Shown here: piece by piece, positions 7,534 to 60,876 of the stretch
Numbering within the stretch: the first letter of the stretch is position 1
Layout: every line of letters begins with the position of its first letter
Position numbers and translations under genes: made by a program
NCBI RefSeq assembly: GCF_030846775.1
Contig: NZ_CP132910.1
Location: 716,001 to 780,000, forward strand
Length of the DNA: 64,000 nucleotides
Direction: 5' to 3'
Source: Geothrix sp. 21YS21S-2
Lineage (GTDB): Bacteria > Acidobacteriota > Holophagae > Holophagales > Holophagaceae
Notes under the pieces: model-generated
What the model was told of the DNA's origin: nothing
The model's database searches: none
What the model saw: only the letters and a program-made list of their open reading frames with translations

Positions 7534-7547
7534 TCTCCTGCCGCATT

Positions 7548-7699
7548 TTTCCCCAGCGCCTCTGTGAACCCTCTGCGCCCCAGCGTTTAGTTCTTTTCCA
7601 TGAATCACTGACTGCTTGGGTGAGCCCCGATCGTCCGGAATCGCACAGAAGGGAATCAAACGCAGAGGCGCGGAGGTTTCGCTGAGGCGCTGGGGGAAA
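7548..7699. repeat. Palindromic repeat, copy 1 (41/42-nt arms, 69-nt loop)
   Basis: Left arm 7548-7588 and right arm 7658-7699 are imperfect reverse complements built from units like CGCCTCTGCG. The left arm begins TTTCCCCAGCGCCTC and the right arm ends GGCGCTGGGGGAAA. It sits between the phoB-like gene and DUF47. Its architecture matches two further copies at 27492 and 60633, although the arm sequence here is the most diverged. Transcribed, it could fold into a long hairpin that blocks read-through. Confidence 0.75.
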
Positions 7700-25699: not shown

Positions 25700-26307
25700 A
25701 AGCCCGGCTTCGTCATCGCACGTGTCCCGGATCTCCAGCCCGGTTCGTTGACGCAGGCAAGCTGCGTCAACGGCAAGCTCTCGCCTTGGGATTCCGCGAA
25801 AGTGTTGGCACACTCCGGCTTCGACGAACGTTTTGGACCAACATGGAAGGGCGGCTCCCCGGGTGGGCCTAGGGCCCTTCGATACGCTTCAAGGGTTGCG
25901 GGGTGGAAGACGGGTCGCGCCGACGCTGGCAAGCAAAGGGCTTTCGCCAGTTCCCATTCCGCGGTCCGGCCAGGGTCCAGGCCGAGTGGATCCCGGTCCG
26001 CACCGCCCATGACCTCCCGCAATGGGCCCGGGCCTTTGCCTCGGGAACCACGGTTCCATGGGAGGCCTGGTTGAGCCGATCAGCGTCGGCGCTCCCCCCT
26101 CTTCCTGCCATGACCCACTCGCAGCGCGCCCCGGAGGCAATAGGCACGTCGGCAGGGCCCCCTGACCCCATGCCCTGGACCGACAGCGAAGCCGGCAAGC
26201 GGAACCCGGCCCCCCGTCTCCTTCGGAATCCAACGAGGCCGGCTTGTCCGGCCGAGTACCCGGGGCGAAGATCCGGGACACGTGCGATTCCATTGCCGGG
26301 CCCCTAG
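25696..26307. mobile_element. Palindromic element A (604 bp, 44-nt terminal inverted repeats, flanked by CTAG)
   Basis: Between CTAG at 25696 and CTAG at 26304 lies a 604-base unit. Its ends, 25700-25743 and 26260-26303, match as reverse complements at 34 of 44 positions without gaps, including a perfect 20-base block (ATCGCACGTGTCCCGGATCT on the left arm). Inside, TTGACGCA/TGCGTCAA (25748-25770) is a perfect hairpin. Open frames exist on both strands but none resembles a known protein and codon use is poor. It looks like a non-autonomous transposable element. The right CTAG is interrupted by the IS630 insertion (its TA is the IS target). Confidence 0.7.
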
Positions 26308-26364
26308 TGTAGGCCGCCAGAAATACCTGTAACGCCAATACAGCTCGTCGCATCCAGGCGGCAG

Positions 26365-27471
26365 GTGAGAACTTTGGCGCAAGTGGGGCGAGTTGATCTA
26401 ACTGTGGAGCAATTCAGACGCCTTGAGGAAATGGCGCGGAGCCGGACCTTGCCTGCGCGCAGCGTCCTGCGGGCCAAGATTGTTCTTCATCGAGCTTCTG
26501 GCGAGTCCTTTCGTGACATCGGCCAGGCTTTGGGCTGTGATCATCGGACTGCTTGGCAATGCCTCAAGCGATGGGAGGAAGCGGGCTTCGATGGCCTCGA
26601 GAGGGAACGCCCAGGTCGAGGCCGGAAGTCTTGGGTGATTGCTTTGAAGGGGCAAGAGGTGCTCCATAAGACGACGCAGGAACAGCCCGTCAATGCCACG
26701 CACTGGAGCCGGGCCTCCATGGCGCAGGCCACCGGGGTGAGCGAGAGCACGGTGGGACGCATTTGGCGCCAGAATGGCCTCAAGCCGCACCGCACCGTTG
26801 GTTTCAAGTTAAGCAACGATCCTCATTTCGAAGAGAAGTTGGTGGACATCGTGGCCCTGTATCTGGACCCTCCGGAGCATGCCATCGTGCTGAGCGTAGA
26901 TGAGAAGAGCCAGATTCAGGCCCTGGACCGGACTCAGCCTGGCCTACCGATGAAGAAGGGTCGCTGCGGCACCATGACGCACGACTACAAGCGCAATGGA
27001 ACGACCACCCTCTTTGCGGCCATGAACACGCTGGATGGTACGGTGATCTCGGCCACGATGCCACGTCATCGCCATGAGGAGTGGCTGAAGTTCCTCAAGC
27101 GGCTTGAGCGGGGTACGTCGAAGCGACTCGCTCTGCACATCATTTGCGACAACTACGCCACCCACAAACATCCGGCGGTCAAAAGCTGGTTGAAAGGCCA
27201 TTCGAGGGTCCACGTTCACTTCACCCCCAGCAGTTCATCGTGGTTGAACATGGTGGAGCGATTTTTCCGGGACATCACGGAGAACCGCATCCGAAGGGGT
27301 ATTTTCAGATCCGTCCCGGAACTCGAAGCAGCGATCCACACCTATATCGCGAGACACAATGCCGCTCCGAAACCATTTGTTTGGACCGCGTCCGCGAACG
27401 ATATCCTCGCCAAGGTGACACGAGCACGGCAGGCCCTCGCGGCCATTCGGACGGCCTCTGCCAAGGGTTGA
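26365..27471 (+). CDS. IS630-family transposase (DDE type)
   Basis: A 368-residue, apparently intact transposase. The N-terminal helix-turn-helix region (ESFRDIGQALGCDHRTAWQCLKRW) is followed by a second DNA-binding stretch with GVSESTVGRIWRQNGLKP. The catalytic acids are in VLSVDEKSQIQALDR, IICDNYATHKHP and SSWLNMVERFFRDITENR, the D-D-E pattern of the family. The GTG at 26365 gives MRTLAQVG as N-terminus; later starts are possible because no clear ribosome site is present. With intact ends and catalytic residues, the element may still be active. Confidence 0.9.
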   Translation: MRTLAQVGRVDLTVEQFRRLEEMARSRTLPARSVLRAKIVLHRASGESFRDIGQALGCDHRTAWQCLKRWEEAGFDGLERERPGRGRKSWVIALKGQEVLHKTTQEQPVNATHWSRASMAQATGVSESTVGRIWRQNGLKPHRTVGFKLSNDPHFEEKLVDIVALYLDPPEHAIVLSVDEKSQIQALDRTQPGLPMKKGRCGTMTHDYKRNGTTTLFAAMNTLDGTVISATMPRHRHEEWLKFLKRLERGTSKRLALHIICDNYATHKHPAVKSWLKGHSRVHVHFTPSSSSWLNMVERFFRDITENRIRRGIFRSVPELEAAIHTYIARHNAAPKPFVWTASANDILAKVTRARQALAAIRTASAKG

Positions 27472-27491
27472 CGGCGAACCTGCCTTTTTCT

Positions 27492-27631
27492 TTTCCTCGG
27501 TATCCTCGGCCTCCTCGGCGCCTCGGCGATGGCTTTCTCAAGTATCAGTCGGAGCAAAGATTACATGCGCCGAAGCACCCGTCGAAAAGCCCATCGCCGA
27601 GGCGCCGAGGAGGCCGAGGATACCGAGGAAA
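27492..27631. repeat. Palindromic repeat, copy 2 (perfect 41-nt arms, 58-nt loop)
   Basis: Left arm 27492-27532 begins TTTCCTCGGTATCCTCGG and continues with CCTCCTCGG and CGCCTCGGCGATGG; right arm 27591-27631 is its exact reverse complement over all 41 bases. The arm is made of repeated CCTCGG-type units at roughly nine-base spacing. It lies inside the IS630 element, 20 bases after the transposase stop and 60 bases before the GxxExxY start. The perfect arms suggest this copy is young. Related copies are at 7548-7699 and 60633-60780. Confidence 0.88.
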
Positions 27632-27691
27632 GAATTCTGGCCTGAACGTCCCGGCGTGATTGAGCGCACTCCTGACCCGAAGGAGGAAGTC

Positions 27692-28111
27692 ATGGGTCGG
27701 CATTGGGGCGAAGATTGGGGCGACAACTATCCCCATCGAGATATCACCGAAGCCATCATCCTCGCTGCCATCAGGGTGCAGATAGTTCTGGGGCCTGGAC
27801 TCCTGGAAAATGCCTACAAGGCTTGCCTCGCCCATGAACTCAGGTTGGCCGGACACGAGGCCCTACGCGAGGTTCACCTCGACATCACCTACAAGGAATT
27901 GTGCGTCGAGAATGCCTACATCATGGATATCGTGGTGGACCACAAGGTGGTCGTCGAGGCGAAGGCCATTGCGAAGTTTTCGGATGCCGACTTCGCCCAA
28001 CTGAATAGCTGCCTCCACTTTGCAAATTTCGAAGTGGGCCTGCTGATCAATTTTCATAACTGGCCCCTCAAGGACGGGGGCATCAAGCGACTCGTCAACA
28101 CCAAGCCCTGA
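27692..28111 (+). CDS. GxxExxY-family protein (PD-(D/E)XK-nuclease-like)
   Basis: A 139-residue protein of the GxxExxY family. The name motif is seen as GPGLLENAY, followed by KACLAHELRLAG, the strand AYIMDIVVDHKVVVEAKAIAKF (D...E-x-K, the PD-(D/E)XK nuclease core) and VGLLINFHNWPLKDGGIKRLVN, the family's ending. The ATG at 27692 has a near-perfect AAGGAGG upstream; an in-frame GTG 36 bases earlier is less likely. It lies inside the IS630 inverted repeats, between a palindromic repeat and the right end. The biological role of this family is not established to my knowledge; a nuclease linked to repeats is a reasonable guess. Confidence 0.85.
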   Translation: MGRHWGEDWGDNYPHRDITEAIILAAIRVQIVLGPGLLENAYKACLAHELRLAGHEALREVHLDITYKELCVENAYIMDIVVDHKVVVEAKAIAKFSDADFAQLNSCLHFANFEVGLLINFHNWPLKDGGIKRLVNTKP

Positions 28112-28170
28112 ACTGGACCCGAGGCGAAGGGGGGGGACAAGGTGTTACCTGTTCTTCTGGCGGCCTACAC

Positions 28171-28445
28171 TAGGAGCCTGTCTACGTAATGGGAGGCCCC
28201 GCGACGGCGCCCAGAAGCGTGATTATCGAGCGCAAGGCCCGCAGGAGGATTAGGTCAATCCTTCAAGGGACTTGCACACGATAAGCGCGCTTCTGGGCGC
28301 CGCCCTTCGGGTGATGGCAGCGGGGCCAGCAACTCTGCGTCAGGCTCGTCAACCGCAGTCCCGCTGCGGCTTTCCTCGCCTTCCTTGATTTGCTAGCCCC
28401 GGTGCCATCATCGCGGGGCCTCCTATTGCGTAGACAGGCTCCTAG
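28171..28445. mobile_element. Palindromic element B (267 bp, branched cruciform-like fold, flanked by CTAG)
   Basis: Between CTAG at 28171 and CTAG at 28442 lies a unit in which nearly every base can pair. Outer arms 28173-28205 and 28411-28443 match at 31 of 33 positions. Inside, arms 28206-28228 and 28279-28301 match at 21 of 23 (GGCGCCCAGAAGCG is the perfect core), with AGGATT/AATCCT near the tip. A second inner hairpin uses 28313-28332 and 28390-28409 (18 of 20), capped by CCGCAG/CTGCGG. A short CCC-TTC-GGG hairpin joins them. The result is a multi-way junction. No gene is inside. Its right CTAG supplies the stop codon of the neighbouring oxidoreductase gene. Confidence 0.8.
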
Positions 28446-30082
28446 TACTCCGTCGCGTAGTCCCCGGCCTTGACGTTTCTCTGGAACGGCAGGAACGGCG
28501 CGGCGCCGCAGGTCTGGGCGATCCATTCGGCCACCCGGATGCCGTCCACGGCGGCCGAGGTGATGCCCCCGGCGAAGCCGGCGCCTTCGCCGCAGGGGTA
28601 GAGACCCGGGTGGCTCACGCTCTGGCCGTCCTCGCCCCGGATCATCTGCACCGGGCTGCTGGTGCGGCTCTCGATGGCCAGCAGCAGGGCCTGGCGGCTG
28701 GCGAAGCCGTGGATCTTCTTGTCGAAGTCGGGGATGGCGCCCCGCAGCTGCTCCTGGACGAAGTCCGGCAGGCAGGTGCCGACGTCGGCGGGCACGGCGA
28801 AGGGGCGGAAGCTGGTGGGGGGCAGGTTTCCCGAGGCCCGGCCCTTGAGGAAGTCCTGGACGCTCGTGGCGGGCGCGCCGTAGGTCTCGCCCGCGGCGCG
28901 GAAGGCGGCCTGCTCCCACTTGCGCTGGAAGTACATGCCGGCCAGCAGGTGGTCCGAGCCGAAGTCGGCGGTGTTCACCTTGGCCACCAGGCCCGAGTTG
29001 GCGAAGCCCGAGTCGCGCCGGGCGTTGCTCATGCCGTTGACCACCACGCCGCCGGGCTCCGAGGCGCACTGGATCACCTCGCCGCCGGGGCACATGCAGA
29101 AGGAATAGGCCGCCCGGGCGGGGCCGAAGTTGCACACCACCTTGTAGTCGGCCGGCGCCAGGCTGGGGTGGCCCTTGGAGGGGCCGTACTGGGACTGGTC
29201 GATGAGCACCTGGGGATGCTCGACCCGCACCCCCATGGCGAAGGCCTTCTGGCGCATGGCCACGCCGTGGCGGTGGAGCATCTCGAAGGTGTCCCGGGCG
29301 CTGTGGCCGGGGGCCAGGACGATGGCCTCGCAGGCGATCTCCTCCCCGCTGTCCAGCACCGCCGCGGCCACGGCCCCGTCCCGGAAGCGGATGTCCGCGA
29401 GCCGGGCGCGGAACCGGTACCGCGCGCCCCGGGCCTCGGCCTCCTTGCGGATGAGCACCGAGCACTTGCGGATGACGTCGGTGCCCACGTGGGGGCGGGC
29501 CAGGTAGAGCACTTTAGGGTTGGCTCCGAACTTCACGAATGTCTCGATTACGAAACGGATCGCGGGGTGCCCGATGCGGGTGGTGAGCTTGCCGTCCGAG
29601 AAGGTGCCCGCGCCGCCCTCCCCGAACTGGGCGTTGGCGTTGGGGTCCAGCACGGCCTCGTTCCAGAGGCCGGCCACGGCCCGCACGCGCTCGCTCATGG
29701 GCGCGCCCCGCTCCAGCACGACGGGCTCGATGCCGTAGTCCAGGAGCCGCAGCGCGCAGAAGGTCCCGGCGGGGCCACTGCCCACCACCACCACCCTCGG
29801 CCTTCGCTCCACGGGGGGCACGGCCCAGGCCACGGGCCGGGGCGCGGCGTCGAGCTGGGCGCCCCTGGGCAGGGACAGGTCCGCGAGGTCGCGCCCGGTA
29901 TCGAAGGCCAGGGCCGCCAGGAACCGGATGGAGCCCTTGTGGCGGGCGTCGAGGCTCAGGCGCTCCAGCACGGGCTCCAGGTAGTCCGCGGGCCGGCCCC
30001 CGAGGAGGGCGGCCAGGGTCTCCTGGAGGGGGTTCTTCTCCTCGCCGAGCGCCAGGGGGAGGTTCGAGATGAGGTATCGCAT
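28442..30082 (-). CDS. FAD-dependent oxidoreductase (NAD(P)/FAD dehydrogenase family)
   Basis: A 546-residue flavoprotein. The dinucleotide-binding loop VVVVGSGPAGTFCALRLLDYG begins near residue 97, and the acidic end of strand 2 is in VVLERGAPM. A GEGGAGTFSDGKL block and the C-terminal GLYPCGEGAGFAGGITSAAVDG, which binds the flavin ribityl chain, define a family of uncharacterised dehydrogenases related to HI0933/geranylgeranyl-reductase-like proteins. The first 90 residues form an extra alpha/beta domain. GGAG precedes the ATG. The TAG stop is formed by the CTAG border of element B; the product otherwise looks full length. The substrate is unknown. Confidence 0.82.
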   Translation of the reverse strand: MRYLISNLPLALGEEKNPLQETLAALLGGRPADYLEPVLERLSLDARHKGSIRFLAALAFDTGRDLADLSLPRGAQLDAAPRPVAWAVPPVERRPRVVVVGSGPAGTFCALRLLDYGIEPVVLERGAPMSERVRAVAGLWNEAVLDPNANAQFGEGGAGTFSDGKLTTRIGHPAIRFVIETFVKFGANPKVLYLARPHVGTDVIRKCSVLIRKEAEARGARYRFRARLADIRFRDGAVAAAVLDSGEEIACEAIVLAPGHSARDTFEMLHRHGVAMRQKAFAMGVRVEHPQVLIDQSQYGPSKGHPSLAPADYKVVCNFGPARAAYSFCMCPGGEVIQCASEPGGVVVNGMSNARRDSGFANSGLVAKVNTADFGSDHLLAGMYFQRKWEQAAFRAAGETYGAPATSVQDFLKGRASGNLPPTSFRPFAVPADVGTCLPDFVQEQLRGAIPDFDKKIHGFASRQALLLAIESRTSSPVQMIRGEDGQSVSHPGLYPCGEGAGFAGGITSAAVDGIRVAEWIAQTCGAAPFLPFQRNVKAGDYATEY

Positions 30083-60548: not shown

Positions 60549-60632
60549 CCGTAGGCCGTCAGAAAGATCTTTCACAATTCCGTCCCTCGCCGGGGTTCTG
60601 ATTACCTGATGTGGGGCGATCCTGCTTTTGCT

Positions 60633-60780
60633 TTTCTCGGCGATCCTCGGCTCCTCGGCGCCTCGGCGATAAGTCCTTTTCCACACCTTGCTGGACTGTT
60701 CACTCATGGCCCAATCCTTGAGGCAGATTCAGCAAAAAGCCTTTCGCCGAGGCGCCGAGAAGCCTAGGATCGCCGAGAAA
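60633..60780. repeat. Palindromic repeat, copy 3 (41/40-nt arms, 67-nt loop)
   Basis: Left arm 60633-60673 begins TTTCTCGGCGATCCTCGG and ends CTCGGCGATAAG; right arm 60741-60780 is its reverse complement with two mismatches and one missing base. It lies between the EmrB-type gene and a decayed toxin gene. Same design and arm length as copies 1 and 2. The unit CTCGGCGCCTCGGCG is shared with copy 2. The rest of the 60549-60876 gap shows no gene. Confidence 0.85.
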
Positions 60781-60876
60781 TGATAAACAAAGTGAGGCTC
60801 CCGCCCGGAGTGAACGCACCTCCTCCCGGATGAGGGGAACGGTACGGGTCGGCACTGGACTGAAATGCTACACGTG

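Follow-up and report, generated by a model that had tools for sequence, protein, structure and literature searches.

The window, a 64,000-nucleotide stretch of DNA from Geothrix sp. 21YS21S-2, contains a unit of 276 bases, element B, that is limited by CTAG at either end and has no coding capacity. The locus raises the question of what kind of element this is. The original prediction offered two candidates, a non-autonomous transposon recognised as structured DNA and a source of structured RNA. Our analysis favours the first: with a probability of about 0.6, element B is a copy of a MITE-like element, non-coding and non-autonomous, that a trans-acting enzyme moves in the form of folded DNA.

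Predicted fold and surroundings of element B

Folding predicts that element B pairs almost completely into a branched cruciform composed of an outer stem, hairpin 1, a mini-hairpin and hairpin 2 (Table 1), as had been proposed from the letters. The outer stem is 36 bp long and its arms are 94% complementary. The junction contains zero unpaired bases, and 56 of 278 bases are unpaired in the whole fold. Hairpin 1 has arms of 36 nt with 86% complementarity. The two long hairpins of the original prediction are present, but the arm lengths given there were too short, and the hairpins also carry conserved internal loops.

The predicted fold is far more stable than that of shuffled controls. Folded as RNA, the element reaches -200.8 kcal/mol and 200 dinucleotide shuffles reach -111.3 ± 5.8 (z = -15.6); folded as DNA, the values are -119 and -53.4 ± 3.8 (z = -17.3). 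The interior without the outer arms still gives a z of -11.1. The opposite strand adopts the same fold, in agreement with the expectation that both strands would fold alike.

Table 1. Parts of element B and their positions in the window.
Feature	Position	Strand	Description
Element B, whole	28170..28445	+	A-type copy, limited by CTAG at both ends
Left CTAG	28170..28173	.	Target-site copy, common to the right end of the adjoining IS630-type element
Left outer arm	28169..28204	+	Terminal inverted repeat; partner 28411-28446
Hairpin 1	28205..28302	+	98 nt; conserved internal loop (GCAAGG... / ...TTGCACACG)
Mini-hairpin linker	28303..28311	+	CCCTTCGGG (CCC-TTC-GGG), 9 nt
Hairpin 2	28312..28410	+	99 nt; reverse complement resembles hairpin 1 in the wider family
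Right outer arm	28411..28446	+	
Right CTAG	28442..28445	.	Minus-strand reading of 28442-28444 gives the TAG that terminates the FAD-dependent protein gene 28442-30082(-)

On its right side, element B ends in the stop codon of a gene for a FAD-dependent protein. On its left side, it shares a CTAG with a 1870-bp IS630-type element (26304-28173), which encodes a DDE_3 transposase (26365-27471) and, as a passenger, a PDDEXK_3 protein of the GxxExxY type (27656-28111), and has the terminal repeats CTAGTGTAGGCCGCCAGAA. The IS630-type element also adjoins element B in locus L061, and in L059 it occupies the internal CTAG of a B copy. CTAG is strongly depleted in the window, with 16 occurrences against about 182 expected by base composition. 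Long inverted repeats of another family, in which CTCGGCGCCTCGGCG or similar sequence is abundant, occur at 27492-27631, 7547-7699 and 60626-60787 of the window; one repeat of this type is located within the IS630-type element.

Copies in the genome and in the family

The possibility that no other copy exists is contradicted by the genome itself, a single contig of 5.25 Mb that contains six copies about 99% identical and five more at 76-87%. One of the six is interrupted by an IS630-type insertion at an internal CTAG. The diverged copies keep the core, and their outer arms are very different yet complementary (AGAGGGTGTTTTAGAAATAGAAGGCC, AGAGGGTGTCTGCTAAAAGGAAGGCC and TAGGGTCTGTTCGGAATGTAGAAGGCC). 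Further copies are far more numerous in relatives within the family. A DNA search located the element in 22 of 99 relatives besides its own genome, every one in the same family. A covariance model built from 34 family members, R1, matches 55 of 71 genomes of the family and 38 of 199 Acidobacteriota genomes, the latter spread over 11 families and 19 of 119 genera. In G001, a complete genome from the same genus, the DNA search and the R1 search both gave zero elements. No match to the element was found in the plasmid, phage and viral-contig collections searched.

The elements also act as landing pads for IS630-, IS701- and IS110-type insertions. An IS701-type IS with a 449-aa PF13546 transposase lies on both sides of a B copy in L002 (G000:210217-213492) and on one side in L004; its ends, CACTACTGTGTCATAA, are beside CTAG. 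An IS110-type element (end GATATGTATTGGCCTGTCAAG) directly adjoins the ends of A-, B- and C-type copies, after ...CT. This arrangement, seen in L059, L064, L065 and L067 with transposase ORFs in L259-L261, is a possible case of programmed targeting of element copies.

Several copies depart from the standard form. Extra hairpins are inserted inside the element in L105, L107, L118, L130, L147 and L153, forming palindromes within palindromes (e.g. GATCTTTGCACCACTTGGGTCCAC...). L055 and L056 are lone arms with exact or nearly exact CTAG flanks, and L057, L176 and L237 are short palindromes of about 53-62 nt that consist of arms only.

Compensatory changes in the stems

The 34 family members support 110 consensus pairs, in which 89.9% of cells are paired compared with 72.1% after shuffling. 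Changes in one arm are matched in the other: 88 of the 110 pairs show two-sided change, against 55.3 ± 3.3 in shuffled alignments, and 0 of 500 shuffles reach the observed value. The covariation score is 0.441, compared with 0.139 ± 0.005 for shuffles, a test inflated by relatedness, and at most 0.123 for structures slid by 1-3 columns, which retain the relatedness and remain far lower, although the consensus structure, being derived from the same 34 sequences, is somewhat favoured over its slid versions. The covariation extends to stems within both hairpins, where the sequence is not conserved. This pattern is unexplained by sequence-specific binding of inverted repeats.

Selection on one RNA strand should tolerate G.U more than A.C. 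Across 99 strand-symmetric pairs, G.T and A.C mismatches are equally common (85 and 92, p = 0.65), so neither RNA strand is favoured. Five pairs are consensus on the plus strand only and four on the minus strand only; thus strand bias is absent there too. Because the mismatch counts are alike, the fold is probably maintained as DNA, or in a strand-neutral way.

These counts bear on the reading of the unit as a structured RNA, that is, a regulatory RNA, ribozyme or terminator that rides as a transposon passenger and acts after transcription. The RNA fold is very stable, internal-loop motifs are conserved, and copies often lie directly at stop codons, all of which would suit such a role. However, G.U is not in excess over A.C, R1 matches most cross-phylum copies on both strands, and the closely related complete genome G001 is without any element. 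An Rfam search gave nothing at gathering score, only sub-threshold matches of microRNA type. Beyond stability, the source-of-RNA candidate thus drew nothing positive from these comparisons, and we regard this reading as highly improbable.

Insertion sites and evidence for mobility

The clearest insertion is a D-type copy, L068, which lies between one gene's stop codon and the next gene's start and is flanked by CTAG on both sides. The site is empty in G002, G005 and G003, where it reads ...AACTTCTAGCTGGAGCC... / ...GACAACTTCTAGC... and has one CTAG at the stop codon. The clean empty sites in three relatives indicate that the elements insert; the target duplication is read from this one clean site. 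G002 and G003 lack the C-type copy L066, and in G005 an apparent decayed remnant occupies the site. For type II elements a target duplication is not supported as a general rule: their flanks have T.A on each side and no clear duplication.

Elements often provide the stop codon of the neighbouring gene. The element's TAG closes the longest of the open frames at 67 of 132 type I boundaries, where one third would be expected (p = 4e-5), though another of the three frames compared is also somewhat enriched. This is moderate evidence, drawn from reading frames, that many copies sit at stop codons.

The fate of pairing differs between copies that stayed in place and copies at different sites. Between copies that share an orthologous site there are 36 one-sided changes (24 broken and 12 of G.T type) and 8 two-sided ones; between copies at different sites the counts are 172 one-sided and 196 two-sided. 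The same-site totals come from six pairs, mostly less diverged than the different-site pairs, with L327/L382 scored in the orientation that aligns the two elements. The contrast is suggestive of selection for pairing that acts through mobility. L327 (G030) and L382 (G038) occupy one orthologous site at which the flanks run in the same direction but the element is turned round; identity is 94.5% in the element and 81-84% in the flanks.

Compensation could instead arise from palindrome-correcting mutation, a process known for quasipalindromes, in which template switching in a hairpin at replication copies one arm onto the other with no selection. It accounts for strand-neutral compensation and for hairpins of arbitrary sequence, but it sits poorly with the mostly one-sided changes at the same site, and the internal mismatched motifs are conserved, not corrected. 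We consider it quite improbable as the source of the pairing.

Spread across phyla and shared architecture

A scan of one genome per species with the end pattern TAGGAGCCTGTC N{235,265} GACAGGCTCCTA yielded 100 stretches, 80 of which were obtained as loci. They come from Acidobacteria, Alpha-, Beta- and Gammaproteobacteria, Planctomycetota, Nitrospira, Elusimicrobia, Eremiobacterota and Binatia, mostly from draft metagenome genomes, with isolates that include Roseateles toxinivorans DSM 16998. Of the 75 loci searched, 60 give R1 matches that span the whole model (E 1e-41 to 1e-17), Roseateles included; the groups matched include Acidobacteria (Acidobacteriota), Alpha- and Betaproteobacteria, Planctomycetota and Eremiobacterota. 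A score of about 27 bits comes from the ends by themselves, compared with 67-148 bits for full matches, so the core contributes to the score. Exact copies of the TAGGAGCCTGTC end number 119 in G101 (Thiorhodococcus mannitoliphagus) and 90 in G104 (Burkholderiales SJ103).

Two long hairpins are present in 157 of 173 folded elements, and 131 of the 157 also carry a single extra short hairpin. The median lengths are 33 for the outer stem, 100 nt for hairpin 1 and 102 nt for hairpin 2. Comparison of the two hairpins in the cross-phylum set shows a resemblance when hairpin 2 is reverse-complemented (score 0.070) and not when it is taken as read (-0.030; shuffled -0.025). Short motifs near the internal loops exceed shuffles in most sets, [ACT]AGG[ACG] on the 5' side and [AC]ACGNCG, GACGC or AACGC on the 3' side, the patterns having been picked after the sequences were seen; the 5' motif is not enriched in hairpin 2 of the family.

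Among the places listed for 17 genomes, the same ends recur with 53, about 190, 270-284 or about 350 between them. Together with L057, L106 and L105, these lengths suggest a modular unit in which the outer arms enclose zero, one, two or three hairpins. In L232, a Candidatus Binatia contig, CTAGGAGCCTGTC arms surround an apparent inverted pair of CGTC-type REPs.

Loci from Thiorhodococcus, Sedimenticola, Nitrospira, Binatia and Elusimicrobia have the same ends around different interiors. Such type I ends around interiors that R1 does not match, found in the first four, fit an ordinary MITE, an internal-deletion derivative of an IS that moves via its terminal inverted repeats and has a nested-palindrome interior whose fold is irrelevant. 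The terminal inverted repeats, short length, CTAG target and dispersed multiple copies fit it as well. For an irrelevant interior, however, neither the strong covariation of the interior stems nor an architecture that persists across phyla is expected. The outer arms are also almost wholly different between subfamilies while the core is kept, and no IS with the same ends was found in the Geothrix genome, the 8-kb neighbourhoods of copies or the places listed for 17 genomes. An ordinary MITE is therefore unlikely, and we retain an element moved as folded DNA as the preferred reading.

Search for a mobilising enzyme

The single-contig Geothrix genome has no transposase between matching ends. The 8-kb neighbourhoods contain no IS between matching ends, only neighbours of the element and chance pairs, and no transposase lies between such ends among the places listed for 17 other genomes. 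Y1 transposases (PF01797) are not supported as mobilisers; they occur in 13 of 71 family genomes and in none of G002, G008, G040, G041 and G043. Presence and absence across genomes likewise do not support IS630 (PF13358), IS4/IS5 (PF01609) or IS701 (PF13546) transposases, and DUF772 (PF05598) is absent from the Geothrix genome. All four of PF01797, PF13358, PF01609 and PF13546 are absent from the element-bearing genomes G008, G025, G030, G036, G040, G041 and G018, though one of these enzymes may have been supplied in the past or from outside. Of these, G008 is a complete genome with at least 15 R1 matches, per-genome counts being lower bounds with both strands counted. G001 has 73 PF01609 matches and lacks the element. 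Because four usual transposase families are absent in element-rich genomes, an enzyme of a type not so far suspected may be at work.

Proposed mechanism

The comparison of sequences establishes the multi-copy state, the foldability of both strands, the conservation of the fold by compensatory change and the insertion of L068. From these we infer that a trans-acting enzyme recognises the fold and cuts at its CTAG feet. The folded structure would become available when the element DNA is single-stranded or extruded as a cruciform. A putative trans-supplied enzyme would recognise this structure and the terminal 12 or so bases (TAGGAGCCTGTC in type I), cut at the CTAG feet of the stem, and join the unit to another CTAG, with duplication of TA or CTAG. 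Copies without the fold would lose movement and decay in place, so that pairing would be maintained only along the line of active copies. For the original suggestion of a non-autonomous transposon recognised as structured DNA, the clean-site insertion, the covariation, the strand-neutral mismatches and the lack of coding capacity all speak in favour, as far as sequence comparison reaches; a partner transposase was not found in the genomes, neighbourhoods and listed places searched.

A broader reading is possible but doubtful: element B may belong to a cross-phylum class of mobile DNA in which the unit of recognition is a conserved four-way-junction fold, made of two inverted-homologous hairpins on a CTAG-footed stem, and not a sequence. 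The enzyme in trans may then be host-encoded and structure-recognising.

Comparison with known systems

No description of the element was found in the open-licence literature, and it may be described elsewhere. Bacterial MITE types include Correia/NEMIS, ERIC and Nezha, and the interiors of such elements are usually taken as passive remnants. Terminal inverted repeats, short length, lack of coding, multiple copies and the empty site of the D-type L068 place our element close to them. It shows the formal features of a MITE apart from two, a passive interior and a related IS that is autonomous. Like MITEs, it is dispersed and has a stable stem-loop and a short palindromic target (review PMC10969869). 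Unlike them, it has an interior with a conserved, covarying two-hairpin architecture that spans phyla, outer arms that are wholly unlike between subfamilies, and, in the genome, neighbourhoods and listed places searched above, no autonomous relative with its ends.

IS630- and IS701-type elements share the CTAG target, and both kinds occupy the same CTAG sites in the Geothrix genome. However, their terminal repeats (CTAGTGTAGGCCGCC... and CACTACTGTGTCATAA) are unlike those of the element, and they are absent in many genomes that carry it.

REP palindromes act as folded single-stranded DNA and are associated with TnpA_REP (RAYT) tyrosine transposases (PMC8266576, PMC2817692, PMC3733652). REP/BIME systems resemble our element in the use of palindromes as folded DNA, in inverted paired units and in a location near gene ends. 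For CGTC-type REPs the linked transposase is likewise missing, and some form dimers within larger palindromes (PMC3733652). The element nevertheless lacks the defining REP features of size, tag and Y1 transposase: its unit is about 270 nt, compared with 20-40 nt for REPs; it has a long outer stem with CTAG feet in place of a GTAG/CGTC tag; and most element-bearing genomes have no Y1 transposase. The covariation and strand neutrality are compatible with a REP-like recognition of the element as folded single-stranded DNA. Here a whole non-coding unit evolves by compensation across many copies and several phyla while its sequence drifts freely, which makes it testable whether folded DNA serves as a substrate of bacterial mobile elements beyond REPs and IS200/IS605.
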